Shown: one piece after another, positions 11,440 to 63,800 of the stretch | Numbering within the stretch: the first letter of the stretch is position 1 | How the letters are laid out: each line of letters begins with the position of its first letter | Assembly: GCF_008831285.2 (NCBI RefSeq) | Contig: NC_045145.1 | Span: 15,312,802-15,376,801, forward strand | Direction of reading: 5' to 3' | DNA: 64,000 bases | Origin: Nymphaea colorata | Taxonomy: Eukaryota; Streptophyta; Magnoliopsida; Nymphaeales; Nymphaeaceae | Translations under genes and position numbers: made by a program | Notes under the pieces: model-generated | The model's database searches: none | What the model was told of the DNA's origin: nothing | What the model saw: the letters and a program-made list of their open reading frames with translations, nothing else

Positions 11440-11514
11440 CCCAATCTCCCCTTTTCTCTCTGTGGTGGGCGTTCTGGGTGGCAGTCAGTAGACGCCCGGG
11501 GCGACTGAGGGGGG

Positions 11515-27000: not shown

Positions 27001-30000
27001 AAATAATAATTAACAAAACCAGTCCCGAGTCACTAGTCGACCCGCCAAGTCATGAGTCAGGAACGGACAAGTTGAGTCTCGAGTCACCAGGTTTTAAAAC
27101 ATTGCTGGAAAGACATAATTAGGAATGTCCCATGATAAAGTACTTTAAAACATGGCTTCAAATTTTATACTACTACGTCAAGCAATAACAGTGAATTACT
27201 GAAAACCAATTTCCTTTCTCACTAGGTAAGATGGTATACAGAAACCTGATACTCTTTGAACAAGGAAGTGAAGTTATTGATCCAATTTGGCATCCTATGC
27301 AACATTATCATGTATACTAGGCCTTTTCCTGCTTCATACGTGATACAGTATTGCGAATATAGCATTCGGTAGTAAATATGGGTCCACTAAATTTTTGACC
27401 TAAATCCGTCTAATTCATCTTATGATCTGGTCACCTTCTTGTTATCATGTAGAATCAGCACTGAGTGTGCATCTTTTTCACATTTACGTTTTAGTTCATG
27501 AGTCAAGACTATGCACACTTCATATGAATTTTAGCATATTTCTGAATTTTCAGTTTTTCAACGTTATTATGCACTTTATATGTGTTAATGCTCATTCAAG
27601 CACGTGCAAATTCATGTTCACAAGCGTTAGAAATTTTCATGTGATATCTTCATACTAATCTTCAAAGTTTCAAACCAAACACCTGATATTGTACCCGACC
27701 TTTATCAAAGGCATTTGTTTGAAAAAGTCATCAGAATAAGTGGTACCAAGAAATGGTTGGCAATACCGGTGCAACATGGAACTTTTGGATGCAGCAACAC
27801 ATAGGCAAATTAATATTTGGCTTTCATGTAATGGACAATGAATTGTTAGAAAACTCATCAAAATAGCAACTACTTCGAACTGAGCAGAAGCACTATAAGA
27901 ATAAAATAAAACGACAGATTCTCAGCTACTATATCTAGAAGTAGAGGCAAGAGAACAATTACCAACTGTTGCCATGGTGACTATGGCAAAATAAAGTGAT
28001 GTCACGTAGCGTCTTACTATAGATATTTCTCGAAAATTGTTATAGCTATAATCGCCCAACTGTAAACTCCCTATCCATGTATAACCCTCTTGTGATTCTG
28101 GCAGAGTTGTGGCAAGATAATAAAAGATGCAAGCAGCTGTATGTGTGCAATAAAGCTCAACAGCGATAAGTTTCACAATCCTTGTGAACAAATAGTTGAT
28201 CTGAATGTTCTTCTCTAGCCTTTGGAAGAAATCTGCCACTTTACGAGCTCGACTTAGCCGAAGCCATAAGAGATATCTCACTTCTTCTTTTCTCCCACAG
28301 ATCTGGATAAAAGACAAAAAGCACAATTATCAGTATTTACAATTTAACCGCAAAAATCTTCGAAAAGGCACGGTAGAAGAAATTAAGAATGTTTCAGATG
28401 AAGCAAGAATCTGTGTGGTCATTGGAGGATGACAGACACTAGATAGTCCGAAAATTTTTTATCTAAAGGAGCACGACCTACTTATTCACAGCCACATTTA
28501 TGAACTCATCTTTATTGCTCACAAGGCTTTCACAGCTTTTGCTGCATACGGTTGCTGCTGTGCAAGTAACTCTGTCTAAATATGTCGGCAGTCAAAAAAT
28601 CACTTAGTTGTCAAGACTTATCATCCAAGAATCCTGTAATCAAAATGGGAAGTTGGAAACAAGTCGATGAAGACCCCTTGAATAAAATCGACGGCAAATG
28701 GATTCGATTGCATGGCCAAGAGTGAACATGTCAAATTTACATTAAATTTAATATATTTTATTTTTAACTAATTTTATACATTTGTTCCCTTTATTTTTTC
28801 TAAATGCCTTTCTAATATTTTTGGCCTGTGGCCTGTGAATTGACTGATTCACTGAATCTTCAGCGTCGCCAATTCGGTTCACAAACCGGTTCCTATAATA
28901 CTGCTAAAAAGACCGATCAGGACTAGATGGGGCCAGTCGGCCTGACTTGGTCCACGTTAATTTACTAAGATAAATAAATACATATATTTATATGGAAATA
29001 ATTACAGAAACATACGTATATCTATATCAAGTCCGCACATATGCATTTATAGTCAGGGATTAGTCAGCTGCCCGCCAATGTGACTAACTGACTAGTCTGA
29101 CCAACTTGCCACCGGTTTAAAACTAACTAGTCGGGATTTTGACAACTAACCCCAAGAGATCAATAGTGCACAAAACCTTCATCTGAGAAGCAAGCACAAA
29201 TTTGTGTCATTACATTTCCTTTTCAGAGGTTTCCGAATATGCAGCACACATCCTTTTTGTGGTTCTACTAATAGCGCATAGCGACATGTACAGGTTCCAT
29301 CAGAGAAGTAACAAGGCGAAATAACAAAACCATAAGCAAGCTAAAGATGAAAAAAACTGCATCAAATTTAGAGATCAAAACATGCTGGGCCTTTTCCTAA
29401 TCCCCATCTTTAGATTGGTTTTCTATATCCAAATCATATGGAATTAAGTACTAATGCTAGAGAACGCAATGGAAAAAACAGCATATAGCACAGAAGTTCG
29501 CAATAGTCCAAAAGGCGTAGCCCGTATGAGCATGTTCATTCTAGTGGCGACTACCAAGTTCAACGAATCAAATTCAATGACACACAGCAGAAACGCAAGT
29601 TGCAGTATGCTATGCCACAAAAAATAAAGCATAACTGAAGTACTCGAAAACAGGAAAAATATCACAGAGGATCAACAGCACAAGTTCCTCTTCACAGTCT
29701 AATTTCCCCTTAATAAATAGCAGGCATGCCATAAAGAAACATCCCAAGGGTAACATCGGTCGTCAAGTCACAGTTCAGAAGATATATTTAAAAGAACAAA
29801 ACAAACAGTCGGCTGGCAAGATTACCCTATAGATATAGTCCCATGGTAAGCAACTAAGAATGTCCACAATGAATCCGGATTTAAGGTACCTGATTTGTAC
29901 AATTCAAACAGAAAAAACAAGAAATCAGCACTATTCTCGCAACCAATTCTCGCAATTCACTACGTAGTGGGAATGCTAGTTTAGAATAAAAGAAAAGTTG

Positions 30001-38824: not shown

Positions 38825-41530
38825 CACTTCAAGCGATAAAATATAACATATTCGGTGCATATTACCCGTTCAAAAGCAATAGTGCTTTTTGGGGAAATAT
38901 AACAAACGCACGTACATGCTTTAACTAACGGAGGATAGTGGTCAGTGTCATTGAGATGCAAATGCGGAAGGGGCCGAAACGACCACAATCCGAATAACAG
39001 CAGATACGTGGTCCATGCTTAATAAAATCAACCTATATATATATACAGCAGCAACATCCCGTCAGTTTGCCTGATACAGTAATAAAATAATAGCTAAAGG
39101 TAATTGTTATTTTAAGTTAATTGGTGGTTTCTCCTTCTTAATAGGAAGAAAAAGGCCTTCTAATAAAGTCTAGGCATCTAAACTAATAAGGAGTGGGGCT
39201 TGGGCCTGCTTGACACCCCAAACCTAGGCTTCGATCCGACTCAACATTTAAAACTTGAGCTTTGGTTTGATTAAATTAATATATATATAGTTATATAAAA
39301 TAATATGTAAATATAATTAAATATTATAATTATATATAAAAATCAATAAAAATATATACTAAAAAAATTATGAGACCCAACTGGGCTTAGTCGGGCCGGC
39401 CCGATAACATATCGAACTGGCCCGGTGCCTTTTTTTCGAGTCAAGCAGAGGTACTCAACCCAACGTCAAGCCTTACTTCTAAAACTACATCTAGCGGACA
39501 TCAACCTATATATATCTTTCCTCCACTTATTTTTTTCATTGATTTTCTGGGATCCTTCCTTATGATGCTATGCAAACGCATAGCTAGCTAGCCGAACCAG
39601 CGGCTAGAAATAAAGCAAGGGGAAAGGTACTCCCCATTAAAAATTACACCTCTATCTATCGAAGCTTAATGTAATCAAAATCACGGCACATGGACCGAGT
39701 AAGATTTGTCGACAACGATCGGGAACATTTGGAATCACCAACCCCACAAATTGGCCCCTTCCTTTTAAATTATTCAAAACCGAGTCATTGCACTGAAAAG
39801 AATGCACGCGAAAAAAAAAATAAAAAAAATCGAAATTTTCTCTCGACCATACTCATCATTTAGCCTATTTGCTTGAGTTCTGTAGCCTGTACGGAAGCAT
39901 GTGTTATGGCCCAAACATGGGATTAGTGTGTTTGAAAAGACAAAAATACCCTTTACTAAGCATGTTGAAAAATGATTGTTTATTGACAAGGACAAAATGC
40001 AAATAAATAAACGTTTTTTTGTTGTTATCATTTTGTACGACAAGGTGGCTGCGAGGGTTATCGAACCGAACATTTGCTGTATTAAAGGCTTTTTGTTATT
40101 ATCATTTTGTCTTTCCGACACACTCTCTATCAAAACTCAAACCGCATCATTTTTACACCTCAGTGAACATATGCATATGTATCAAACGGATTTAAGGGGC
40201 ATTTTACCTATTTTTAAAAAAATATATATATATTAAAAATTTATATTTTTTGGCTTTCAATCTTATATTTTTATAGAGGTCAGCCACTTGGTCAAAAAAT
40301 GTGTACGGTGGTGCATATAACCAGCTTCAATCAATCAACGCAAGCCGCTTGCTGAGGGCTACCTAATAAGCAAAAAAATGGTGGTTGACGTGGATTTCAG
40401 CGGGAACCAAATGCTAATGCAAACGTTGAGCACTGCCCACAACTACAAATTAACAATTAAGAAAGCAAGATACGTAAACTTGTTAGAGAAATTGGTGAAA
40501 GGTTTCAACGAGAAGTTTGGCAGACAAGTGGATGGACACGAAGCATCAGCCCCACGTAATTTAGCATGAACTACGGCACTTATGCCGAAATCTTTGGCAT
40601 ATGCTTTGAAAAAGATCAAGCATCTTGGTGACCAATTAAACATTTAAAAAGCGCTCCTACTTGTTTTCGGTCGTTCTCTCGAGAAGAAGAATAAGAAGTG
40701 GTGCTTACCCCAGCGGAGCGAAAGAGATCGACCATAATTAAGCTTTTCGTGGTCCACATATAGAATGTCATTTTGCATTGGTTAAACTACGAATATTGTT
40801 TTCCATAAAATAGTTACAACATTTTTTTTCAGGAGTTCTTTTATAAAATTGTTTTTCTCAAAAATATTAAGAAAATTTCAACAACTTTTTAAAAATTATG
40901 AAAATGCTCAATTTTTTTTTAAAAATAAAAATTACGAAGAAATGAAGAGAATTTGATTTTGACAATATTTTCAAAATCTCGCAATTTATTTGTCTTTTTT
41001 TGCTTTATTTGATTCTTTCGTAATCATCTCAAGATTTTTAAAAAGCTTCTCATATCTGTGGCAGGTTGTATCTGGTAAAAGATGTTTTGTCTTTTTTTTT
41101 TTTTTTTAACGCTTATCTCACTTACTTACAATGTATTTAACTGTTCTGAATTCAATGAGTGTGACGCGTGTTCAACTTCCATGCAATTTTTCACCGGACA
41201 GCCGGCTGATCTGCCAACGCATTGCAAGTGGCTTCTCTTATATGTTTGTGAGGCAGATTGAAACCACCTGCTGATGCGGATTTGAAAAACGAACTTCTCC
41301 GATCCTTTCTTTTTAAATGAATGGAAATCGAATCTGTCGCACATCCGTTTGCGTCATTAGTTAATATGGGTACTATGAGTCACATATTTTTTTTTATTGT
41401 TTAGAAATATTTAAAGTTTTATTTTAACTATTAAATACATTTTATTAATTTTTAAATGAACATAATAATATATTTTCACTGATTGATTGAATTGCTTGAC
41501 CCACCGATTCAATGTTAGTGTACGGCGCGC
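38825..41530. repeat. Segmental tandem duplication, copy A
   Basis: Shares an ordered series of near-identical words with copy B at about 42070-44245: GGATAGTGGTC.G.GTCATT, TAGCTAAAGGTAATTGTTAT, GTAAACTTGTTAGAGAAAT, GCATCAGCCCC.CGTAATTT, CCGAAATCTTTGG.ATATGC, GGATTTGAAAAACGAA.TTC, and CTACGAGTCACATATT-like sequence. Non-coding on both strands as far as I can see. Copy A carries an extra block of about 300 bp at 39180-39490. Confidence 0.8.
39180..39490 (-). mobile_element. GC-ended, AT-cored dispersed element, copy 2, inserted in copy A
   Basis: Reverse-complement relative of the block at 16968-17325. The shared sequence of copies A and B is interrupted here in A only: common sequence (GTTAATTGGTGGTTT) precedes it and common sequence (TCTTTCC...CATTTATTTTTT-like then GGATCC/AGATCC) follows. 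This implies insertion after the duplication. Confidence 0.5.
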
Positions 41531-42069
41531 TACGTCAGAATCAATAATAGCATAGTCACATGGTGATGGGTGTGGGAGTTTTACAATGTTTGTTTATTTT
41601 ACAGATACATTTTATTGTATATATATATATATATATATAACTGCTCTTAAAAGCATTAAAGTTATTGAATTAATGCTTATTTCAGCCAAAATTTGCGGCT
41701 CCCTGGATTAGGCAATGGCTGCTTGGATAGCTTTGGAATACTATGAAAGGTTAGAGAAGAAATTAACTGGGAGACCGCAGATAATAGCGTGGATTTTTTG
41801 CTGCATCATATTCAATTGATGGCTTTCAAAAAACAGAAAAGTAAATGAAATAGAGATCTTTAACATTTGTTAATGTGAGCCTAACAGGACATTGAGAGAC
41901 CATATGCTAGAGAAGAAACATATGAATCAATTATATGTGAATGGAAGAATTCTGCTCTGGGGTCAGCGTAGCACCTGGGAGAACAGGGAACAGTATGCTG
42001 CTGCTGATATATATATATATATACACACACAAAACAACAACAACAAAAAGAACAACAAACCATTCAATG

Positions 42070-42291
42070 TGATTCAAGCTATTATAAATATAATATATTC
42101 GAAGCATGTTATCCGTTCAAATACCATATATGCTTTTAAGGAAATATAACAAACTAACCAAGGATAGTGGTCGGAGTCATTAATATAGGGCTATATCAGC
42201 CGATATGCAGTACTGATAGCTAATGGGGAAGGCACCCAAACGACCCCTTTTAAATATAAGCTGATATGTGGTCCATGCTTAATTAAATCAA

Positions 42292-42373
<82 letters not shown>

Positions 42374-44245
42374 TCAGCAGCAGCAATATGGCGTCAGTTT
42401 GCCTGATGTGTTAATAAAATCATAGCTAAAGGTAATTGTTATTTTAAGTTAATTGGTGGTTTTTCGGTATTAATATATGAAACGCCTATTGAGCCCAGGC
42501 ATTCGGCTTTCTCCTACTGTCTTTCCATTTATTTTTTAAGATCCTTTTTTACAATGGTACTGCATAGCAGATGCTCGTGTCCCTAAGTAGATGCAATTCT
42601 ACACTCTAAAAAGCAAGAGAAAAAGGAGGAGCTTTACGTAATCACGTCAAGTTTTTAGACAAAAAACAAAAAAAAGGCAAAGCGAGTCCCCACTGAGAAT
42701 AACACTTCCATCGAGGCTTAATATAATCAATATCATGGCTCATGGATCAAGCAAGTTTTTTTCTCGAGAGAGAGAGCGTCCAGAATCAGTATCCGAGGGA
42801 TGCACGTAAAAAAAAAAATGCAAATTATTCACCAAATCATTGCCTTTTTCTCTTAAAATGGTCGTTGTCAACAGGAGCTGCTGAGCTTTATAGACCATAC
42901 GAAAGGCAAGCTAGTTATGTATCAGGGAAAAAACATGGATAGTGTGTTTGAGTGGACAAAAAGTATCATCCTTCAAACACGGTTTTGAAGATGGTCACTT
43001 CCGAGGACAAAATGGGAATACTAAACTTTTTCGCATTAACATATATCACACTAGACTGACTGTAGACACACACATATATCATAGATGCATAAATATCAAC
43101 GGGATTTTGGGGGCATTTTAACTATGTAAAGAAATTGATATTTTAGGAAATTCAAAAAAATTCGCTTCCACTTTGATCATTTTGCACCCTGGTAAACAAC
43201 AAATGATGTAGAAGGTTGGCTGAACCCCACGACTACAAATTAACAGAGCAAGATAAGTAAACTTGTTAGAGAAATGCATGAAAATTTTACAGATGGCGGC
43301 CATTGCTATGAGATGATGTGCGCCTTTGGAGTTTTTAAGCAATTTAGATACCTACAAAAAAAAAGTATGGCAGACAAATGGATTGACATGAGGCATCAGC
43401 CCCCACGTAATTTAGCATAAACTACGTCACTTGTGTGCCGAAATCTTTGGAATATGCTTTGAGAAAATCAAGCATCTTGATGAACTACTAAAAATTTAAA
43501 AAAAAAAGAGCAATGCATACCGCCGCGGTGTAGAGATTGACCAAAATTCGTGGGTCCGCCGGCGTTATGTCATTTTACGGTCGTTGTTACGAATATTGTT
43601 TTCGAGAAAATGGTAACAATTTTTTTTTTCGGGTATTCTCGAAAAAAAAAATGAGTCTTTAAAAATGTTTAAAAAATGAAAATAATAAAAAAAACTTAAC
43701 AAAAATTAAGAACTATAGAGTGTCGGGAAAAAATCGCAATGGAATGAAGAGATTTTCATTTTGGCAATATTGTATTGAATCAAATAAGAGTGTTTTGCTT
43801 TTCTTCTTTTATCTCAATTCCAATGCATTTAACTATTCTGAATCTTATACGCGCGACCCGTGTTGTAATTTCACCTGGTAACTGGCTAGCCGGCTGCCGG
43901 CCGGAGGTGGGATATAATGGAAGAAGAAGGGCCGGCCCACATCTGCGAGCGCCTTGTTAGTGGCTTCTCATATATTTGTGACGCACATTCAAACCCCATG
44001 CTGATCCGGATTTGAAAAACGAAGTTCTCCGATATGAATAAAGTTGGCGTCTTTTGAAAACGATGAGTTTGAATCGAATCTGTCGCAGACCCATTGGTTC
44101 ATCGGTTAATGTGGGTACTACGAGTCACATATTATTCTTTTATTGTTTTAAAATATTTGAAATTTTTATTTTAACTATTAAGTATAGTATATTTTTACGG
44201 ATTCACTGAATTACTGACACAGCCTATTCAATCCTAGTGTACGGT
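42070..44245. repeat. Segmental tandem duplication, copy B
   Basis: Partner of copy A, in the same orientation, starting about 540 bp after A ends. The copies have diverged visibly by substitutions and indels. B has gained a (TA)n(TTTA)n tract at 42293-42375 where A has only a short ATATAT run at about 39036. Confidence 0.8.
42293..42375. repeat. (TA)n(TTTA)n compound microsatellite
   Basis: About 14 TA units followed by about 12 ATTT/TTTA units, inside segmental copy B. Confidence 0.95.
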
Positions 44246-44690: not shown

Positions 44691-45930
44691 TTGGTGGCGA
44701 CTTGCATGGGTTTAATTCAATCTTCGAGCTTTACAAAACTGAGAAAGGTTAGAGAGAATATATTTGCGTGGATTTCTTTGCTGCATCATACACTAAACTG
44801 GAGTGGAATCAAAGTCTGCGGTTTCAGTTTCTAAATTTTAAAAACAAAATACCTCGTTTGTCCCACCTAGGGCCTCTTCTAGTTTCTGAAGAAACCTACA
44901 GTGTTCAAATTAACCGGACCTTGTGGTTGGAAGATTGCAGTCCAACAGCATCAAAACCTGGTTTTCATCCAAATTTTGGATAAGGAGGCACTACCAATGA
45001 TGAAGCTTTGTTTGAAAGTGAGGCGTGAATGCAAGTCTAAACTCACATTCTTGAATTAAGTTGAACTTGAAAAGGACTAAATCTGACCTGAAATCGCCCA
45101 CCGTTTTGCCAAGTTTGACTAAATTTGAGCCAGTACTCAATGCCAAGTTTGCTTTTTTGTCTAAATTTTTTTTAAAAAATATGACCACCCAAGTTTTTAG
45201 ATGAATTTTCTAAAGACGCAAGTAAAAGAAAATAATAATTTTATATAAAATAATGAGAATACCCCCTACAAAGTACCACCCCTCCCTTGGGTGAAGAAAG
45301 ATATTTCCGTTATCAGAAACATAACAAAAAACCATCATTTATCTTCCTTTTGCCAATCACGCATGTGGTAGCGTTTGGATAACATCCTAAAAAAAAAAGT
45401 GGTTTTTGTAAAAGATCAGGTCTTGATAAAAATTAGTTTTAGTCCTTATTCTGAGTTTGCGCTTAGAAAGATATACTGATATTGTTATTTCGTTAATGTT
45501 AAAGGAATGTATTATGGAAGCCTTTGACATAAACCGGATGTGACGTTGATTCTTTGATATCTTAAGCAACGATACCTTGGCATATTCATAATGTATACCA
45601 TCTGGCTCCGTCTATCATTGGCTGTTCAAACGCCTCCCTCCCCTTTTAAAGCCACAGGTGGCCGTACTTATCATGTCCCAAATTTTCAACCATTCACTGA
45701 ACACGGAGAAATTGAAGCAATCCTTCCCCATCATGGACCATATGATATGATATATAATATTAGTTATTAGCGTGACGACAATTGAACAATTGGAAAAAAA
45801 CATAAAAAAAAAGATAGTTACAGCAGAAAAATGGATGGCAAATTAGTCGATTCAATCGGCGTTGAAGAAATAGGAATGGGCCGGCCGGCCCCATAATGTA
45901 TCGGGCCGGTTCAGTACTTACGACTATAAG
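44690..45930. other. Intergenic, nothing recognised
   Basis: AT-rich sequence with short open frames only (for example 44768-44983 plus and 45615-45803 minus). A GGGCCGGCCGGCCCC run at about 45878-45893 followed by ATAATGTATCGGGCCGG resembles part of the element at 39180-39490. No gene found. Confidence 0.5.
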
Positions 45931-45944
45931 GTAAATGACAAACA

Positions 45945-46095
45945 CCTTTACGGCCTGCTTCCGTCTGTTTACGGCCTGCTTCCGTCTGTTTTACGTTGCC
46001 AAAACTGTAAATGACAATCACCTTTACGGCCTACAGTACTTACGGCCTGCTTCCGTCTGTTTTACGTTGCCAAAACTTAAAATGACAATCACCTT
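45945..46095. repeat. Short nested tandem repeats
   Basis: ACGGCCTGCTTCCGTCTGTTT-like units (about 20 bp) occur three times, and TTTTACGTTGCCAAAACT plus AATGACAATCACCTTTA recur around them. The block ends about 75 bp beyond the donor of the SAL1-like exon, inside what should be its first intron. Confidence 0.85.
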
Positions 46096-46169
46096 TAGCT
46101 TAAAATGACCATTTATAGCAAAGAAGAAACAAAAAACCAATTTGGAGATCGGAAGAGAAAAAGTGAGAC

Positions 46170-46415
46170 CTTGCAGAGTTGCGCAGCGAGGGAAGCGGCC
46201 TTCTTCGCGACGGAGAGCTCCTTCTCGTACGCCATGGCGAAAATGGAGGCCCTGCTCCTCGTCCGGAGCTTCTGCTTCTTCGAGAGAAAGAAGTCGAGAT
46301 CAGGATTCGGGAAAGGGAGGACAGACCGGCTTAGGTGGTGATGGCGGGAAGAGAACTGGAGGCGAAAGGAGGAGGCGCTACGGGTTGGTGGAGCGTAAGG
46401 CGGCAGGACAGCCAT
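46170..46415 (-). CDS. SAL1: SAL1-like 3'(2'),5'-bisphosphate nucleotidase, first exon only
   Basis: SAL1-type enzymes hydrolyse 3'-phosphoadenosine 5'-phosphate in chloroplasts and mitochondria and shape stress retrograde signalling. The exon encodes 82 residues: a Ser/Arg-rich, acid-poor leader of about 60 residues that looks like a transit peptide (many Ser, Arg and His), then MAYEKELSVAKKAASLAAQ and LCK, the conserved start of the plant SAL1 core. A phase-0 donor follows (AAG|GTCTCA). I searched the minus strand leftwards to the channel gene at 36.6 kb and did not find later exons such as the VTVADYGSQ or DPIDGTKGF segments. Either a very long intron holds exons I missed, or this is an orphan or captured exon. 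The exon itself is undamaged. Confidence 0.6.
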
Positions 46416-47182
46416 TTGTCACAGAGACTTATACATACAAATGTAACTATTTATCATGTCGGATAATATCATGAAGCCTTCTGTCTTGATAATCAGTCAC
46501 TAGTTCGAGTAACATGAGTATCAAACCCTTCAGGTCAATGGAGGAAAGCAATGTATTAGTCGACATGTAGTAGAGCAATGGAAGGGAGAGAGTCTCAACT
46601 CAGATCTCTGATAATGGTAGGATGAAATGCTCCTCACTCACCAATCTCAGTTTTGTTCCCACCTACCCTTGTAAACTAAAATTAATGCAAATACTCAAGT
46701 ATAAGATTAAACAAGGTTTGATCATTGTCAAAAATAACGTAATGGCAAAGTTTTTCTCTAAAATAATACAACAAATTGGTTTTTCGAAAAAAAAGTTCAG
46801 TAAATTTTAAGAAAAGTTAAAAAAAAACGTAAAAAATGTGAAAATAAAGTTCTGGCAACTAAAAAATATCAAACAAAGCGAAAATACATAAAACCGACCA
46901 GTGGTGACTGAGATGAGAGAGAGAGAGTGGCACAGTATCCGTCACTTGTTAGGCTGAACCATTTCCAACTCTTCTGCTGTTCCATCATAACTCTCTCTCT
47001 CTCTCACTCTCTTCCTCCGCCGTTTTCCCACCATCCATTGCAGCCTGTCATCTATGTGTCTCTCTCTTTACTTGTTTCGCCTTTTTCTCTCCCCAGCATT
47101 TTTCTTCAGCAAGCACTTGGTATATCATATATCCTTAGTGGGGAAGAGTTGAATCCCTGCTACATCGTTCCCTGGTTGTGGG
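46416..47182. promoter_or_regulatory. Shared 5' region between divergent SAL1-like exon and F-box-type gene
   Basis: The two first exons point away from each other with about 770 bp between start codons. The right end (about 46990-47100) is a CT-rich stretch of the kind common in plant 5' UTRs. No clear TATA box was identified. Confidence 0.4.
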
Positions 47183-50100
47183 ATGGGGAGGATGCCGACG
47201 CCGATGCCGCGAGGTGATGATCATGGTGATTCGGCTGTGGAGTCGGGGGAGATGCAGACTCACTTCTGTGAAGAATGCAGGTAAGACAAGCGTCATTTCT
47301 TCAAGATCATGACAAATGTTTCTGCTAAGCTACTCGTTAGCAACTCTTTCTCTCTCTCTTCTCTCTTACCTTTTGCAAAAATCCTGCCATACCCATTTTA
47401 CAATTTGTTTTCTGTTTGAAGAGCTACAAAGTAACCTTAATAGTTTATGCAATGCTCATGGCATATTTTTTCTCTGGATTGGAGTGTTGATTGGGTAGGG
47501 GAGGTCGTGTTTGGCCTACAGAATGTATCTATTATGGTCTGGATATTTAATCTTCAAATAGATTCTTGATTTGCCGAATGTGCTGGTTGAGTACAAGTTT
47601 CATTCTCCTTTAGCAACTGCCACTTTCTTGTTTGGGACTAAAAAGCAATTGCACGCTGCAGCTGCTTGTACCTTCTGATCACTAGTTTGCAAATTTTCTC
47701 TCTACTTATTTGGCTTGGTATGTTTATCGGCCGAGATGTAAGCTTGGTTTCGCCTAACAGTGACTAAACAAGACCGGGTGGTCTTGGCTTCTCTGTGGTT
47801 GTGTCGAAGGAGTTTTCTTGTAACCCTTTTCTCGTGGACGTCTCTTTGGGGAAATGACAGATCATGCTTCGATAGAGGAGTATTCTTTTTTTTTGTTTTT
47901 GTTTCTTAGGGGGAGCACCGAGCATGCATTCCTGTGGTACTAGAACTAGATTTGGTTAGTAAAGAACTTCTGAAGTTGCTGTTATACATTTTTTCCGAAG
48001 CTTTCAAAGAGAAACGGGTACCTGAACCCTCTCGAGAGCAGTGGTACAAGTAAAACCAACCTTCTAGATGCACCTTGCTAATTTTGTAATCTTTAGCTTT
48101 GGCTTGCGCAAAAATGAGACTCTTCAAGCCCCGGTCCACCCAACTTTTTGGTCTAGATGCGTAAATGCCTAAATATGTTCTAAGAGTTCAGTCTCTTAAT
48201 TTCTTCGTGATGTTATGACTTAACCATGTGATCCATCACTAATTTAGAATTTCTTAAAAATGTGTCTGAACGTTTTGTTAGGCCAAGGCACTCTCCCTTC
48301 ATATTGACTAGTCTCTAGTTTAAAAACCCTTGCATGCACTCCTTTTACTTGGAATGTGCTTTGCCTTGTCCTTGTGGTAGAAAACCCCCCCTTTTGAACT
48401 CATGACAGCCCATCACTTGTCTGACATTCACAAGTTGGCTTACCAGATGAGTGGAACCCTTGTGAACAATAGTTTGGAATTTCACCATGTATATAAGCAA
48501 CTCAAGCATGTTACTTTTTCCTATTTTCTTTAGTTAATTTTTTTTCTTAGGAATGTGCTTTTGTAATTGAGCTTATACATGATAGACAGTGGTCGGTGCG
48601 ATTGCTAGTTGTGAGACCATCACAAAAACTAGTCTTCCCAGGGGCTGCAGTGAGGAGAAACGACCTCACACTTAGTGCATTCTCAGATGAATTCTGCAGA
48701 TCCTTTCCTGAACGAGTGAAATATTTACATATTTTTGTGGTTTGGTCTTTAAGTTGTTCCACTACACATTTACTACCTTGTAGATCGTGCATATCTCATG
48801 CATGTCAAATAAGCTGATTCTGCATCAGCCGTAAAGTGTTTTGGTATGACTTCTGAAACCTGATTTTGATTATAAGCAGGCTCCAAATGTTTGCTATTTC
48901 ATCACTTGTCTGATATTCACAAGTTGGCTTACCATATGAGTGGAGCCCTTGTGAGCAAGGGCTTGGAATTTCACCCTGTATGTAAGCAACTCAAACTGGT
49001 TACTTTTTCCTATTTTCTTTAGTTATTTTTTTTTTCTTAAAAAGGTGCTTTTGTTATTGAGCTCATACATGATAGATAGTGGTCAGTGCGATTGCTAGTT
49101 GTGAGACCATCACAAAAACTAGTCTACCCAAGGGCTGCAGTGAGGAGAAACGACCTCACACTTAGTGCATTCTCAGATGAATTCTGCAGATCCTTTCCTG
49201 AAAGAGTGAAATATTTACATATTTCTGTGGTTTGGTCTCTAAGTTGTTTCACTACACATTTACTACCATGTAGATCGTGCATATCTCATGCATGTCAAAT
49301 AAGCTGATTCTGCATCAGCCGTAAAGTGTTTTGGTATGGCTTCTGAAACCTGATTTTGACTATAAGTAGACTCCAAATGTTTGCTATTTCATCACTTGTC
49401 TGATATTCACAAGTTGGCTTACCATATGAGTGGAGCCCTTGTGAGCAATAGTTTGGAATTTCACCATGTATGTAAGCAACTCAAACTGGTTACTTTTTCC
49501 TATTTTCTTTAGTTAATTTTTTTTTCTTAGGAATGTGCTTTTGTTATAGAGCTCATACATGATAGATAGTGGTTGGTGCGATTGCTAGTTGTGAGACCAT
49601 CACAAAAACTAGTCTTTCCAGAGGCTGCAGTGAGGAGAAACGACCTCACACTTAGTGCATTCTCAGATGAATTTTGCAGATCCTTTCCTGAACGAGTGAA
49701 ATTTTTACATATTTCTGTGGTTTGGTCTCTAAGTTGTTTCACTACACATTTACTACCATGTAGATCGTGCATATCTCATGCATGTCAAATAAGCTGATTC
49801 TGCATAAGCCGTAAAGTGTTTTGGTATGGCTTCCGAAACCTGATTTTGACTATAAGCAGGCTCCAAATGTTTGCTATTTCATCACTTGTCTGATATTCAC
49901 AAGTTGGCTTACCAGATGAGTGAAGCCCTTGTGAGCAATAGTTTGAAATTTCACCCTATATATAAGCAATTCAAACTGGTTACTTTTTCCTATTTTCTTT
50001 AGTTAATTTTTTTTTTCTTAGGAATGTGCTTTTGTTATTGAGCTCATACATGATAGAGAACGGTTGGTGCGATTGCTAGTTGTGAGACCATCACAAAAAC

Positions 50101-52396
50101 TAGTCTTTCCAGGGGCTGCAGTGAGGAGAAACGACCTCACACTTAGTGCATTCTCAGATGAATTCTGCAGATCCTTTCCTGAAAGAGTGAAATATTTACA
50201 TATTTCTGTGGTTTGGTCTCTAAGTTGTTTCACTACACATTTACTACCATGTAGATCATGCATATCTCATGCATGTCAAATAAGCTGATTCTGCATCAGC
50301 CGTAAAGTGTTTTGGTATGGCTTTTGAAACCTGATTTTGACTATAAGCAGGCTCCAAATGTTTGTTATTTCATCACTTGTCTAATATTCACAAGTTGGCT
50401 TACCAGATGAGTGGAGCCCTTGTGAGCAATAGTTTGGAATTTTACCCTGTATATAAGCAACTCAAACTGGTTACTTTTTCCTATTTTCTTTAGTTAATTT
50501 TTTTTTTCTTTGGAAGGTGCTTTTGTTATTGAGCTCATACATGATAGATAGTGGTCGGTGCGATTGCTAGTTGTGAGACCATCACAAAAACTAGTCTGCC
50601 CAGGGGCTGCAGTGAAGAGAAACGACCTCACACTTAGTGCATTCTCAGATGAATTTTGTAGATCCTTTCATGAAAGAGTGAAATATTTACATATTTTTGT
50701 GGTTTGGTTTCTAAGTTGTTTCACTACACATTTACTACCATGTAGATCGTGCATATCTCATGCATGTCAAATAAGCTGATTCTGCATCAGCCGTAAAGTG
50801 TTTTGGTATGGCTTCTGAAACCTGATTTTGACTATAAGCAGACTCCAAATGTTTGCTATTTCATCACTTGTCTGATATTCACAAGTTGGCTTACCATATG
50901 AGTGGAGCCCTTGTGAGCAATAGTTTGGAATTTCACCCTGTATGTAAGCAACTCAAACTGGTTACTTTTTCCTATTTTCTTTAGTTAATTTTTTTTTCTT
51001 AGAAAGGTGCTTTTGTTATTGAGCTCATACATGATAGACAGTGGTCGGTGCGATTGCTAGTTGTGAGACCATCACAAAAACTAGTCTGCCCAGGGGCTGC
51101 AGTGAGGAGAAACGACCTCACACTTAGTGCATTCTTAGATGAATTCTGCAGATCCTTTCCTGAACGAGTGAAATATTTAAATATTTTTGTGGTTTGGTCT
51201 CTAAGTTGTTTCACTACACATTTACTACCTTGTAGATCGTGCATATCTCATGTATGTCAAATAAGCTGATTCTGCATCAGCCGTAAAGTGTTTTGGTATG
51301 GCTTCTGAAACCTGATTTTGATTATAAGCAGGCTCCAAATGTTTGCTATTTCATCACTGAAAGTTGCAATTACGCCTGAGAATCTCCTGTGCTTCTGCAT
51401 AGATACGTATTTGATATTGTCATTTTTTAGATCTTAAAATACTGGAATTGTCCCCACCCCCAAGATGTCCATTGCAGTCAAGAAGATGCTATCCATTCTT
51501 ATAATCAAACTTACCTACATGTTTCTTTTGGAAGTAATTTATGGGTTCATGTGAGGAAGTTTCATTGAATTACTGTGATTCATAAATTTGGGAACCTCCT
51601 ATAACTCCATCTTTGTAACAAGAACTCTTGAAGAAAGTTTCTGCAGCTGAGTCGATGCGACTCGAGTGTAGCTTGGTTTCACAAGTTGCTTTTTTTTTTG
51701 TTGAATCATAACTTGTTAATTGTTAATTATTAATTTTGTTGTTTGTGGACAACCACATAACAAATTATTTATTGCTATATATACATGCATGTCATACGTA
51801 CACACACACGCACGCACACACACACATACATATATACATACATATATATACATATGTATGTGTATATTTATATGTATTATATATGTACATACTCTCCACA
51901 TGTTCGCCCCCTGTGCTTTTTGAAATATGATCCCCACCACTGCACCTTTGTGGCATAGAACTCCATTTGTACATGTGCTTCTGTTCCAGATCTTGAAGTA
52001 CTGTTTTAGCCATTGGGATTTGCAGTATCCATTGCAATCAACAAATATACTAGTGTTAATGTTTGTGCAGGAAGATGTCACAAAGAGACTAGTGACTCTT
52101 GATGTTCTTCCAGGAGATGTCGTTGTGGAGATTCTAGCACGCATTGTTTCTTCGTCCCCAGCCATGTTGTCTGTTCTTGATCTTGCCAACATAAAGCTCA
52201 CGTAAGTTTTCTGTCATCTCCCACAAATTCAACTTTCAAGCATTCTGCTTGATTCTCTAAAGGGTTTGATTCAAATGTGGTGCGCAGGTGCAAGATGCTG
52301 CGTGAAGCTGCAAGGGATAGACGGGTGCTCAGACGAGCCACCATTGTGGATGGATCTCGAAGGCTAGGCTGGTGGCTGTACAGACAGAGCTCATGA
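47183..52396 (+). CDS. Small F-box-type protein gene with a 4.8 kb first intron
   Basis: Three exons: one ending at 47280 (GCAG|GTAAGA), 52071-52201, and 52288-52396 ending in TGA. Exons 2-3 encode LDVLPGDVVVEILARI, then DLANIKLTCKMLREAARD and RRVLRRATI, an F-box-like fold (LP-D-VVEIL, then L-NIKLTCK) of the kind that binds SKP1 in SCF ubiquitin ligases. The start is ambiguous. ATG 47275 followed by CAG reads directly into exon 2 in frame, giving 81 aa (246 nt including the stop). ATG 47183 (MGRMPTPMPRG, ending HFCEEC) is open to the donor but in phase 2, and would hit a stop early in exon 2 unless another exon intervenes. With 47275 as start the protein is nearly a bare F-box domain with no substrate-binding part. 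The family assignment rests on motif resemblance. Confidence 0.6.
48410..51357. repeat. Six-unit tandem array of a 490-bp repeat
   Basis: Equivalent points (GTGCGATTGCTAGTTGTGAG) recur at about 48594, 49084, 49574, 50065, 50556 and 51046, a period of 490-491 bp, with only scattered substitutions between units. Each unit starts near CATCACTTGTCTGA.ATTCAC and contains a T-rich tract (CTATTTTCTTTAGTTAATTTTTTTT) followed by a better-conserved, GC-richer half. Each unit holds an open frame of 73-74 codons on plus (RLLVVRPSQKLV, then DLTLSAFSDEFCRSF); four of the six also keep an 81-codon frame on minus. Neither resembles a known protein. The array lies wholly inside the first intron of the F-box-type gene. 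Confidence 0.95.
51795..51870. repeat. CA/TA-rich simple repeat
   Basis: Mixed (CA)n, (CG CA)n and (TA CA)n tract in the same intron, downstream of the 490-bp array. Overlapping open frames here on both strands are low-complexity artefacts. Confidence 0.8.
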
Positions 52397-54530
52397 GCAT
52401 TTTTATTCGATTGTGTAGAGACAAGAAATCAACTAGCAGCATGTGTTCTAGGCATGGTATGAATTTGTGGTTCTTTTTTTCATATTGCAGGTTTAAGCTT
52501 TTCATGCGATAATGTTCTTCTGTTATCTTCATAGGTTGCAACACACGCCAAAATTGAAACAACGATTTATAAACTATCAGCAAATACTGCAATGCATTCC
52601 TGATTAAGAAAAAGAATAATTATTTTACTAAATATTAGCAGTATATGAAACTATGCATCCCTTTTCTTCTTGTTTCTAAGGTGAAAAACTCTTTAAAAAC
52701 CATATCAAATCAATTCTGCCTCTCTCTTTCCTTTTTCATAAATCTGCGGTGTATGTATAATATGTTTTAGGATTCTATATTTTCTATTGGTGGGCCTACA
52801 GGTTGAATGCTATGGTAAGGGGAGAAAGGAAAAGGGAAAGTTGCACCTAGTGGGAGCTGCAAGGAAGGCTGCATGGAAGCCATGTATTTTCTTGGAATTT
52901 TGCTTAAGAACAAGGGCCATCAACAGCTGCAGGCATGGAATGGCTGGAGGGAGCTGCTAAAGTTGGAGGTGGTGGAGGTGCCGGCCTGGTCAAGAGTAGG
53001 AACAAGGTTGTGCAAATGCTAAGAGACCTATGGTTTCCAACTGCAGCCTCAACCATGGCACTGTGCGGATGATGAGTGCGGCGCACTAGTAAAAGGTGAA
53101 GCCTTTGCCTTGAGAGGTTGGTGGTGTGAGGAAGACATAGAAAATGACAGACACTTTTGCTCATCTCTATGCAGATCGATGTACGAATTCAATAAATTTG
53201 TAAACCAACTATGATCTAATTTTGGTGATGGCCTCTTGATTCTTGTCCCTATGCGCATCTGCAGCGCTTCCCCACGTATGACACCATCAGCATCTGGAGC
53301 GCCACTTTCTTGTCATACTCGCTGACAGTCTCCACGTTCCAATGAGGACTCGACGACGAAGACTAGATTGCCAAGGGATTTAGATCGGTACAAGATCCGT
53401 TGGAATTCGGATTCGGTAAATCCAAAACAGATCCATTTGCTGAGAGAGATTGAGGAAGGGTAGAAGATGATCTACTAGCCTTTTGGCGTGTTTACTGAAA
53501 TTATTGGACTGTGAGGTCTCACAATCGATTTCAAGAAGAAACACATGCATGAAGCACTATCAAATTAATTATTTCTCATGAACGATCGATTATATCCTAT
53601 TATCATGCTTCTGCTAACTATCGATCAACCGGATTAGCAATGCACCTATATGGACGGGAAAGAGATAAACACAGAAAATTGAAGACTTAAAGGATCATCC
53701 AAAAGGAAAAGGAGACTAGAATTTCGGTGCCCTAAATATGGGAGGAGATTATAAATGGAATCCGGCAAATCTCCTTAAGTTTCCATCAGTACACTGAGAT
53801 CATGCATGCAGTGGATTCTAAATCGTGAACATCTAGTCAGGATACCCAATTTTTGTTTGAATTTTCACGTACTTAGTTATTCCAAAATTGAAGCCATTTA
53901 AATTTCTAACGACAAACACTCCAGGAATCAAACATCGGACTTCTTTTAGCTCCACATATAAAGTCATTGCCTGTTGCCGCCAACTAATTTAAAATGCTTC
54001 CCCGCTCTATCCGCGAGAGCATATCGGCGGATCGATTCATCTCGAAATCGCAAACTTATCAAAATCTTCAATATTTACGATATTTTGGAAGTTTCATTTG
54101 TTTTGTTTTTTGAAAATACATGGAAGCACAAAGTAAGCAATGCCTTGCAAACGAAAGGTGTTTTTTTTTATCTTTGTTGATATCAAGATAACACCTTTAA
54201 GTTAAAAAGAAAATCTCAATATTTTATTGGCTTCTAAAATCTCGCAGTGAAAACTAAAGATTAACTTTCGAAACCGTCTACATTTGTTACCGTACACACA
54301 AAGAAAGAGAGAGAGTTGGCACTTACACAATTTTTTTTGCAGAAAATATAAAAAATTGAAAATGAAATTTTGAAATGGTTATGGCAATCCCAAAGTTTAA
54401 AATGGTAAGTCCGCTCTCCCTCCAAAGAAGCTACAACGGGGTGGAGGAAGGAAGGGAAGAGTAAATGGTAATCCTTCCTCTCATGTTTCTTCTAACTTCA
54501 GTTTCTTCATTTAAGAAAGCCCTTTAAGTT
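52397..54530. other. Intergenic region between F-box-type and PLATZ genes
   Basis: 52397-52620 is probably the 3' UTR of the F-box-type gene. A GC-richer block at about 52840-53400 is open on the minus strand. Part of it (about 53262-53350) reads NVETVSEYDKKVALQMLMV on that strand, which looks protein-like, but I cannot name it and it has no neighbouring exon. The rest is AT-rich and featureless. Confidence 0.4.
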
Positions 54531-57825: not shown

Positions 57826-60800
57826 ATGTTTTTCAGTGTGGAGTTCCAAGAGGATCCAACAGATATCAGGGACTGTTTGGATGCTTTTCTCAAAAAGAAT
57901 CTTGTACAACTTGTTGGAGAAGAATTGCTTCCTCAATCTGAAGCTGATAAAATTGTTGGTAAGCTTCGAGAATTAAGGGTACCCACCATCCATCTTTGTT
58001 TTTCTTAATATTATGAATTTTTATGTGTGACATAGGCTTTATGATAATCATTTGGAAAAAGTTGTAGTTTGCAATCAGTTGCTTTTCTTGCCTGTACTAT
58101 CTTGCTACAATTTTTTTCTGATTTTAGATATCTTGCATGAGTCACCCCCCGAGTTTCATAAGAGGTCATTCAAACATGCTGTTGACTCCATTCACTTGAT
58201 GGCTGCTGGTCATCTTTGGTAGGTGGGGGATGCTAGCAATTTAATCACACACACACACATGGGAAAAGGGTTGGTTGAGGTTGGCTGAAAATCAGGTGAA
58301 CTTTACATGCACACACACACACATGTGAATCGTTTCTATATTTTGTTTTTGTCACTTATGCAATCTCTCTTAGATTTTTGCTATACTGATACCATTGATG
58401 CCCTTTTCAATTTGTTTAAGCAATCTAGTTCAGTGTTTTATGGGTAGAACATGATTGTTATGACCATTATCCACCACACAACCATCTTAACCAAAAAGGA
58501 AATCTACTAGGTATAAGGCTGGCCCAGGTAGTATATTATGGTGTTGCACAAGGTCTGGCTAAGTTAGGCAGGCCAAGCAAAGAGAGCGGTTGGAAGAGTA
58601 AGTTGAGCATGGCAACCTTAGTAGGACTAGCATGGATGAGGTATTATTTCCACCAAAAATTTTTCAACAATTAAGTCTTCCTCCCTCTTTTCTTAATGGT
58701 TTTGTCTTTATTGTGAGGACGAAGCATTGAAGATGAAGAAAGTGAGAGAGAACACATGCGATAAAATGAGACGTAAAACGGAAGAAAATGAAATAAATAT
58801 TCATAAAATTACCTATTCATTTTTGCTTGAGTCGAATCAAGCTTAAAAATTTGAGTCAATGAACTTGAACTCAGCTCGACTAAAAAAAGTAGTTGAAAAA
58901 TGAGCTCAAGCTTGGCTTGTTTATTAAAATAACCGGCTTGAACTCTATGTTTTCAAGCTGAGCTTTAACGAGTGGAGCTCAGAAGATAATTTCTTTTGTT
59001 CAGTACTCATCTTTAAAGCTGATTGAGGCTAAGTATAGGAGTTGATCAAGGCTAAAAACCTCCTTGAATGGAAGATTCCTAGTAGGACGTTGATGGTGAA
59101 AACTGTGACACCGGTCAAATTGGACGAAGCCAATTGCATGTAGTCAAAGTGTCTTGAGATGCACATCAAAGGAAGACACCTTTGGGGCTACATTAAAGGT
59201 ACTACTCTTCAACCATGTATCCTAAATTCACTAAAATTGGAAGTGGAGAAGAAAGAATTGTAGAAGGGGATAAAGGAGAACGAATTTTAAATGATTATTG
59301 TAAGTTTGAATGATTGGGAAGCTAAGAATGCAAGAACTAGGAAATGAATATGGAGATTAGGATAACTCAAAATCTCATTCACAATGAAGAGGCTAATGAA
59401 CCTTGGGAATACCTCAAGTGTGTGCTCGTCCAAAAAGATATGGTTTGAAAGTGTCGGTTTACTTTATGGAAATATCAGTTGTTTGGATGAAATTGGTCAA
59501 CCTAATGCTAATCTTGTGATTGATTATGATTGCCATGAAAATAGATGATCTAAATTTTAAGAACTGAGTTTCTTTCGATGCCTCAAGGTTTAAATACACA
59601 AATTTGAACAAGTTAGGGCTGTTATTTTAATTGTTCGTCTCATCTTCTAGTTTATGAAATCATTACGAAATTAAGCGGGTTGGAGACAATATTAAGTGTG
59701 TGCAAAATTGAATATAGAGTTCCTATGACCAAAGAACAAGAGAAAATACTTGCAGCATTTAGACATGGGACAATATTAAAATTTACCCGCTTCCACATTT
59801 CAATAATCAAAATAAGGGAGGACATAAGTTGTATTACTTTTGCCAAGGACTGAGGCATATTAGGGCCCAATGTTCCATATTCAAGGCATCCAACCCACTT
59901 GAAGGATCATCAGTATGATGTTCTCTCCATGTCAAATAAATTTTGGGTATAGGATCGCCAGTTTGAGAAATTAATTGGTGACGGTTTTAGAAAAGGGTGT
60001 GTACAATTTTTTTATCTCCAATTATTTGTGTTTTAGTGTTGTCGAAAAGATGAAGACCTAATGTTAGAAACTTGACTTTGATATCCCCATCAAAATATTT
60101 TGGATTGAAGATCTCATATCAAATAAATGTGTATACATGAAAAGTTGAAATCTTTATTTTTTGGACAAAGATATATTTTCACTACAATATCCATCGAGCT
60201 TGTTTTTTGGGATGTTTGGTTGCCCATCCACATCCACATTATCATGAGGGATGGATTAGGGATCTACATTAACACCTAATTTAAGACCAACATTTAAGCT
60301 AGATCAGGTCAGACCTCTGATCCAGATTCTCGATCGAAAGTCGAAATCCAACACTTATAACGTATCAAATTAGATTTGTGATCCAAACCATATATCATAT
60401 GTCAAAACCCAACATTTTTACCAAACAAGATTAGACCCCTCATCTATACTAGAGATGCATAAGTGAAATTCAACCCAAATTGAACAAATAAACCAAATCA
60501 GATTTGACCTATGATCTAAACCTCAATTCTCAAAACGAAATTCAACACCAAATTCGGGTCAGATGAGACCTCTGATCCAACCCCATTTGAAGGATCATCG
60601 CATGATTTTGTTTTCTCATCAAATAAATGTTGGGTGTAGGATCGCCTTTTCGAGAGGTTTATTGGGGTAAGTTTTAGAAATGAATGTGTATATTATGTCT
60701 CATTTTTTTTATTTCCAACTATTTTTTATCTAGTGTTGTCGAAAAGATTATTATCAATATTTGCATAAAAGATAATGTTAGAAATTTTACCCTTCCAAAG

Positions 60801-63800
60801 ATTTTGTATTGAAGATTTGATTGTTAATAAATTTATAAGTGGAAAACACTTGGGTATGCCCTTCCAAAGATTTTGTATTGAAGATTTGATTGTTAATAAA
60901 TTTATATGTGGAAAACTGAACTCTTTTTCTTTTGGGAAAAGTCCCACAAACTTGTTTATTTAGATGTTTGAAAGTCACCCTACATTATGTCAAGGGGTGG
61001 ATTACATACCTAAATTTTACCCCAGGTTTAAATCCAACGTTTATATCGGATCAGGTCAGACTTCTGATCCATACCCTAGATCGAAAATTGAAAATGCAAC
61101 ACCTAAAACTGATTAGATTAGATCTTTGATCCATATCCTATATCCTAATTCCAAATCCAACATTTAAACCAGATCAAATGAGACATCTGATCTCTATTGA
61201 GATACAAATATCAAAATCAACATTAAAACTAGATGCAAGGTTCAAAGCTCAAATCCAACATCTAAACCGGATCAGGTTAGACCTCTGATCTAGATCCAAT
61301 GTTCAAAATTGAAACAAAAAAATTAAAGTGGAACAAATTAGGCCAATGATCCTTGTCTCAGGTCTAAAACCCAAATTCAATAAATAAACCAGATCAGGAG
61401 AGACATTTGATCTAAATTTTGGATCTCAAATCGGAATGCAACACCAAATCCGGGTCAGATCAGACCTCTGATCCAACTCACTTGAAGGATCATCCCAAGG
61501 ATGTTGTTTCCTTGTCAAATAAAATGTTGGGTGTATGATCGCCGGTCCGGGAAATTGTTTAGGGATGATTTTAGAAAAGGATGTGTATATTATATGTACA
61601 ACCTTTTATCTTCAATTATTTTTGATTTAGTGTTGTCGAATTAGACCTTTGATCTAAACCCCATATCTCAAAACGAAATTCAACACCAAATTCGGGTCAG
61701 ATCAGACCTCCTATCCAACCCATTTGATAGATCATCGCTATGATTTTGTTTTGTCATCAAATAAATGTTGGGCGTAGGATTGTTAGTCCGAGAGGTTTAT
61801 TGGGGTGGGTTTGAGAAATGGATGTGTATATTATGTCTCAATTTTTTTTAATTTCCAACTATTTTTTATCTAGTGTTGTCGAAAAGATTATTATCAATAT
61901 TTGCATAAAAGATTATGACATAATGTTAGAATTTTGCTTTGATATGCCCTTCAAAAGATTTTGTATTGGACATTTGATTGTTAACAAATTTATAAGTGGA
62001 AAATTGAAATCTTATCTTTTGGGAAAAGCCCTTCAAACTTGTTTATTTAGATGTTTGAATGTCAACCCACATTATGTCAAGGGGTGTATTATGGATCTAA
62101 ATTTTACCCCAGATTTAAATCCAACATTTAAACTGGATCAGGTGAGACTTTTGATCAATACCCTAGATCAAAAGTTGAAAATCCAACACTTAAAACTGAT
62201 CAGATTAGACCTTTGATCCAAGTCCTATATCCTAATTCCAAATCCAACATTTAAACCGGATTAGATTAGACCTCTGATCTCTACTTGAGATACAAAAATC
62301 AAATTCAACATTGAAACCAGATCAGATTAGACCCTTGATGTAGATGCAAGGTTCAAAGTTCAAATCCAACATCTAAACCGGATCAGATTGGACCTTTGAT
62401 CTAAATCCCATGTTTAAAATCGAAATCCAAAAATTATGGATTGGGCCCATGATCTATATCTCATGTCTAAAACACAAATTCAACAACTAAACCAGATCAG
62501 GTGAGACCTCTGATCTAAATTGTGGATCTAAAATCGGAATTCAACACCAAATCTGGGTCAGATCAGACCTCTGATCCTATCCACTTGAAAGATCATGGCT
62601 ATGATATTTTTTTCTTGCCAAATAAATGTTGGTTGTAGGATGGTCAGTTTGTTAAATTGGTTGGGGATGGTTTTAGAAAAGGATGTGTATATTATATGTA
62701 CAATTTTTTATCTCCAACTATTTGTGATTTAGTGTTTTTGAAAAGATTAATATCAATATTTGCAGCAAATGTCAAGACCTAATGTTAGAAATTTGACTTT
62801 GATATCCCCATCAAAAGCTTTTGTGTTGGAGATTTCATATGTGATGAATGTATACATGAAAGTTTGAAATCTGGACAAAGATATATTTTCACTACAGTAT
62901 CTATAGAACTTGTTTTTTGGGATGTTTGGTAAGCTGCCTACATTATGTCGAGGGATGGATTGTGGATCTAGATTAACCTCAAATTTAAATCCAACATTTA
63001 AGTCAGATTAGATCAGACCTTTGATGCAGACCCTCGATCAGAAGTCGAAATACAACACCTATATCGATCGTATTAGACCTGTGATCCAAACTTTATATTA
63101 TAAGTTCAAATCCAACATTTATACCGGATCATATTAGACCTCTGATCTATCCAAGAGATACATAAGTCAAATTCAACTTTGAGATCAGATCAAATTAGAC
63201 TGATCGAGATCCTATATGAGCCCATGGTTGTGGCTGCATCTGTGATAGGCATGGTTTGCAAATACATAGGGGGGCATCTCCCCTCATTAAGGAGCTATTG
63301 ATCCCCATTTGAAACTCTTTTTTTTTGTGTGGTCTACCATGTGTGAACATGGCTGGAAATGGTGGGGATTGGCCATTGGATGTTTGAAGGAAAATAGATA
63401 GCCATGGTGAGCTGTAATTTGATGAAAATTATGCAAGTGGTGATTCCATGCACTTATTTTCAGTGTTTAAGTTGATTTGTGAGTCATGTACAACGTCTAT
63501 GGTGCATTTAATGTTCACTTGGTGAGCTTAGGTCTCTGCTGCAATTTCTCTTTGAATGATAAATTGCTACTTTGTGTCCTTCCTTGTGATTAGATACTGA
63601 AAGGCTTATACTGCAAGTGATTCGATCAAGTTGTGGATTATGATGCAGTTCCTTTGAGCAGGTGTGCATGATTGAGGTTTACTTAGTTTTCCATTACTGT
63701 ATTAGCTCCAGCTTTTTGCCCGCTCCAAATAGAGCACAATGATAGCACAACTAGTTGCAGCTTTCTTTTGCAGATTATGACTGAACCAATAGAGCAGATG

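Follow-up and report, generated by a model that had tools for sequence, protein, structure and literature searches.

We analysed a window of 64,000 nucleotides from Nymphaea colorata (contig NC_045145.1, positions 15,312,802 to 15,376,801), which bears an array of six near-identical units of about 490 base pairs (bp). The array is flanked by a fragment of a B3-domain gene on its left and by a broken member of an F-box gene family on its right. An earlier examination of the letters of the window, hereafter the original prediction, had placed the array in the intron of a tiny F-box-type gene. We describe here the structure of the array, a locus elsewhere in the genome at which the unit is single, and the tests applied to its possible functions.

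Structure of the array and its single-copy counterpart

A single strong array was detected in the window by Tandem Repeats Finder at positions 48411-51358, with a period of 490, 6.0 copies, 95% matches and 0% indels. This bears out the whole number of near-identical units that had been predicted, with coordinates that were one base off. Cutting the array at the word CATCACTTGTCT yielded six head-to-tail units (48411-51351; Table 1), which share 93.7-96.3% identity in pairwise comparisons. Across the six units 58 of 489 ungapped columns are variable, the two-state sites comprising 40 transitions and 16 transversions, and indels are confined to one poly-T run. The heptamer CATCACT was found at all five internal junctions between units and at the right end of the array. 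Elsewhere in the window unit-like sequence was limited to short chance matches of 16 to 36 bases at best (E 0.31 or worse). Five comparisons of the unit with its own flanks indicated no relatedness, the scores being equalled by 37 to 177 of 200 shuffles. Two flank-to-flank alignments were marginal: 9 of 200 shuffles equalled the score of 51397-51491 against 51953-52052, and 3 of 200 that of 47317-47411 against 52671-52768.

The genome (407.8 Mb in 783 contigs, the window being part of the contig named C8 here) was searched with the unit; such a search scores only the best candidates, and diverged copies could escape it. It returned seven matches at two loci, namely the six copies of the array and one copy with 88% identity on contig C4. 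The latter, the sole other copy found, is single (C4:16505734-16506227). Seven matches at two loci among the candidates scored do not make a genomic satellite, with many copies in several places; the satellite suggested in the original prediction found no support, and the unit did not turn up as the common satellite that would have spoken against function. The C4 unit is 492 bp long, starts with CATCACT and is directly followed by a further CATCACT, so that even in its single state the unit is enclosed by this 7-bp direct repeat.

The likeness between the two loci extends beyond the unit. The alignment to C4 covers positions 47117-48906 and 50862-52069 of the window and none beyond, within the 27.9 kb of C4 examined. 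The shared segment measures about 2.4 kb on C4, with one unit there against six in the window, and its gap-free identity to C4 is 91.3% in the left flank and 91.65% in the right flank. The C4 locus is the start of a gene for a B3-domain protein, consisting of exon 1, an intron of 2468 bp and an exon 2 beginning with RIPPSF; exon ends were set by hand, and the examination covered exon 1 and 330 bp from the beginning of exon 2. The Pfam B3 domain was matched at 4e-16 by exon 2 alone and at 6.7e-19 by the joined exons, and this improvement argues that the domain begins in exon 1. The single unit sits inside intron 1 of this gene. When the genome was searched with positions 47100-48410, the left part of the segment, matches came from the window, from C4 and from contig C7, the last a single 52-bp fragment. 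At this C7 locus (C7:5014468-5014519) the 5' region of the B3 gene has another partial copy (291 aligned positions, 72.5%), with members of the F-box family no more than about 110 kb away.

Table 1. Features of the array and of its surroundings in the window
Feature	Position	Strand	Remarks
Segment shared with C4	47117..52069	+	B3-domain gene, exon 1 and the greater part of intron 1; blastn of the window against C4
B3 exon 1 remnant	47183..47284	+	33 codons, then in-frame TAA (47282-47284); C4 open at the same place
GTAAGA, donor-like site	47281..47286	+	Alignment with C4 and splice-site score; presumed donor of the original prediction
Unit 1	48411..48899	+	489 bp; 11 private changes, most of the six
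Unit 2	48900..49389	+	490 bp
Unit 3	49390..49879	+	490 bp
Unit 4	49880..50370	+	491 bp
Unit 5	50371..50861	+	491 bp
Unit 6	50862..51351	+	490 bp; 3 private changes, fewest of the six
Terminal CATCACT	51352..51358	+	7 bp; pairs as direct repeat with CATCACT at 48411-48417
Broken F-box family member	52070..53232	+	Lacks the start codon and 6-7 initial codons at the junction; frame stopped early by TGA (52394-52396)

Divergence among the units

The units differ from one another by 4.7% on average, about half of their divergence from C4, and 28 columns are fixed across the array yet different from C4. Both observations argue that amplification or homogenisation took place after the two segments had separated. 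Among 13 informative two-state sites, 45 of the 78 pairs do not fit a single tree, and agreement between neighbouring sites along the unit exceeds that seen when their order is shuffled (P 0.026), a pattern that fits exchange between units.

Compared with C4, the units carry 41-49 differences per 484-486 sites (range over the six units), and the flanks carry 108 in 1241 on the left and 53 in 635 on the right, or 161 in 1876 together. The rates do not differ (Fisher p 0.65 for the mean of the six units).

The junction with the F-box family

On both sides of the junction the frames are broken. In exon 1 of the window locus one G/T difference from C4 makes both the in-frame TAA and the donor-like GTAAGA, the weights of the splice-site score being entered by hand. 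The B3-derived segment stops at 52069, and similarity to the F-box family runs from about 52070. This family has at least 56 matches in the genome, including the window copy and 15 short fragments on contig C5. In 20 members the presumed start was ATGGGC in 15, ATG with other letters in three and without ATG in two, and the start codon of the family lies six or seven codons upstream of the first matching codon of the window copy. The premature stop of this copy corresponds to W in two translated family members. Beyond the stop this copy has gaps of 1, 4 and 8 bp that are absent from the aligned members covering those places, and some further members likewise look broken in the same alignment. 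The F-box domain scored below the Pfam cut-offs, with 21.1 against 24.3 bits for PF12937 and 18 against 20.5 for PF00646. The left flank at 45800-47120 had no match in the 13 F-box loci compared (seven and six more). In view of the fusion, the 5' truncation and the premature stop, an F-box gene with an intron as host of the array, judged from these sequences, appears doubtful. What stood of the original prediction is the intronic origin of the unit, the intron being that of the C4 B3 gene.

The F-box family forms dense clusters at C1:1147000-1298900 and C8:4586100-4604000, where many matches are partial. A second, older-looking array was noticed at C5:10193651-10201344, where a fragment of the terminal exon of the family has 15 matches. 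Eleven of the 14 spacings are between 483 and 523 bp, and Tandem Repeats Finder gave periods of 501 and 503 with copies roughly 80% alike. This array has no match to the 490-bp unit, and it may be coincidence that both arrays have periods close to 500 bp.

Open frames and RNA structure

The original prediction had noted a plus frame open in all six units and a minus frame open in at least four, and we found the same. The plus frame is open over at least 75 codons in 6/6 units and over 77 codons in the C4 unit, and an 82-codon minus frame is open in 4/6. This openness is within chance. An open run as long as the longest in the consensus dimer (82 codons) was reached in 25% of 2000 shuffles of the same composition, and when an open frame of 75 codons was passed on neutrally to six copies, all six kept it open in 21% of 5000 simulations. 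Together with the divergence of the units, which equals that of the flanks, this supports one of the options of the original prediction, that recent duplication alone suffices.

The shared plus frame (49080-49304 and its equivalents in the other units) has undergone 35 changes, of which 22 are polymorphic and 13 fixed relative to C4. They fall 8, 20 and 7 times at codon positions 1, 2 and 3, and the coding signature, with fewer changes at positions 1 and 2 than at position 3, is absent from this frame. The minus-frame changes number 11, 8 and 11. Substitutions spread evenly over codon positions had been named beforehand among the signs that would speak against function; there is indeed no third-position bias, but the spread in the plus frame is uneven. 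None of four array translations (three from single units, one spanning a junction) reached the Pfam cut-off, two falling short of it with E 0.027 and 0.067, and a sequence search of the PDB with the plus frame of one unit gave two matches, the better at E 1.1. An acceptor-like site, TTCTTAG/GAA, passes the set score in three of the six units (1, 3 and 4), again with hand-entered weights, and no donor-like site in the array reaches it. An exact 39-base pattern had no match among viral contigs, as expected for plant sequence.

No Rfam family reached its gathering score anywhere in the window. With the E limit set to 10, Rfam matched nothing on the plus strand of the array and only the KatA thermometer on its minus strand, with 22 bits where 111 bits are required. 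Two hairpins were predicted within the conserved middle of the unit. The unit folded no better than its shuffles (z -1.21, and -0.53 to -0.85 for four sub-stretches). Compensatory changes were found in none of 141 consensus pairs, at a divergence too low for this to carry much weight.

Other repeats and genes of the window

Positions 59888-63200 contain degenerate repeats with a period near 61 and 122 bp, and longer internal duplications mostly of 67-81% identity. Pieces of about 60-250 bp from 38.8-41.4 kb reappear at 42.1-44.2 kb with 71-88% identity, and these recurrences (38828-44193) suggest an older duplication about 3 kb apart. On the minus strand, Pfam identified a protein-kinase frame of 344 codons at 10450-11484 (Pkinase, 3.5e-67), and ankyrin and ion-channel frames at 20486-20959 and 27922-28326.

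Discussion

Taken together, the observations lead us to propose the following history. A piece of the B3-domain gene, with exon 1 and most of intron 1, would have been copied to the window locus, where it came to be joined to a truncated member of the F-box family. The stretch of about 485 bp between its two CATCACT repeats would then have been duplicated in tandem, through recombination or replication slippage at those repeats, and the duplicated unit would have grown to six copies, partly shuffled by unequal exchange. Copying from C4 to the window, rather than the reverse, and recombination as the mechanism are the conditional parts of this scheme. Amplification between the 7-bp repeats explains the measured features with the exception of the excess of changes at codon position 2. 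We saw no sign of a selected function of the array, and we infer that it has none. As a whole, this account is very probably correct.

Several points weigh against this history. The excess at codon position 2 of the plus frame is not predicted by neutrality; its sense is opposite to purifying selection on that frame and, several frames having been examined, it is probably due to chance. The mosaic test for exchange between units is marginal, adjacent units are no more alike than distant ones, and the distribution of private changes, with most in unit 1 but fewest in unit 6, shows the end effect of unequal exchange at one end only. The direction of copying is unproved, and C4 could have lost copies, which is unlikely because of the 28 fixed differences. 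Neither a target-site duplication nor a mobile element was identified at the locus. Finally, two splices could in principle bridge the junction: joining 47280 (at ATGCAG, 47275-47280) to 52071 is in frame and gives 81 residues, and joining 47280 to 52010 takes the frame of exon 1, before its TAA, into the F-box piece. An expressed chimera of B3 and F-box sequence may thus be envisaged from the letters.

Other explanations of the array were weighed against duplication without selected function. The copies might act like the b1 repeats of maize, that is, as locus-specific non-coding copies that recruit small interfering RNAs (siRNAs) and DNA methylation and thereby control a nearby gene or cause paramutation. 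The architecture resembles that of b1, with six copies of about 490 bp here and one at the only other locus found. CG sites that differ from C4 are also more frequent in the units (34/110, six related units being summed) than in the flanks (16/133), a weak hint at most of CG methylation. Against this, among the units, with changes polarised by C4, CG sites show no excess of GC>AT changes (1/8), and those at CHG (9/37) do not differ significantly from those at CHH sites (20/143; p 0.14); AT>GC changes occurred at 11/301 sites. Moreover, both the B3 and the F-box neighbours are broken, so that no clear local target is left. We therefore regard a b1-like role as improbable. Slightly less probable still is that the amplified array became an epiallele-like source of siRNAs, silencing the single-copy C4 B3 gene in trans through the shared sequence of intron 1.

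The remaining explanations are even less probable. Assembly errors classically arise at near-identical tandem copies, but each unit has 3-11 private changes, and libraries of about 20 kb, as given in PMC7015852 for PacBio sequencing of Nymphaea colorata, can span 3 kb; an assembly artefact is thus very improbable. Alternative exons, as had been suggested, or a small repeated protein could account for a plus frame that is open in the six units and in C4, and for the acceptor-like site. Their chances are minimal, given that this site passes the set score in only half of the units and has no donor-like partner that does so in the array, that the openness is within chance, and that the changes gather at position 2 and show no third-position bias. 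The same very low probability applies to genes for structural or small RNAs, for example an intronic cluster of small nucleolar RNAs or microRNAs: the two hairpins would suit them, but the Rfam searches, the fold scores and the consensus pairs do not.

The interest of the locus lies in the fact that one genome displays the unit in single copy, the 7-bp repeats from which the amplification probably started and, in the flanks, a neutral yardstick, which makes it a clean worked example. It also teaches caution, as a frame open across recent copies together with a plausible pair of splice sites does not amount to a gene. Were the array to produce siRNAs, trans-silencing could readily be tested on the single-copy B3 paralogue.

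Comparison with known systems

This array was not named among the papers listed for intronic and plant tandem repeats, variable number of tandem repeats (VNTR), duplication at microhomologies and paramutation, which is no claim that it is absent from print. Minisatellite or VNTR-like arrays are textbook cases of tandem duplication at short direct repeats with subsequent unequal exchange. Our array shares with them the whole number of copies, the short word at the junctions, one end unit as the most divergent and the mosaic distribution of differences. It differs from them by its long unit (490 bp), by its six copies only and by a single-copy state that is visible in a paralogue. Chimeric pseudogenes that arise by partial gene duplication are likewise a known kind. 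The locus resembles them in that exon 1 and intron of the B3 gene are joined to a 5'-truncated F-box copy with both frames broken, and differs by the two in-frame splices conceivable across the junction.

At the maize b1 locus, as described in PMC3798267, an 853-bp sequence that is confined to this location is repeated seven times, and alleles with a single copy are neutral. These repeats are situated some 100 kb upstream of the start site of b1 and their function is supported by genetic evidence, whereas the array lies between broken gene pieces and is described here from its sequence. What the array and the hepta-repeat of b1 (PMC3798267) have in common is a small number of long tandem copies at one locus and a single-copy state elsewhere.

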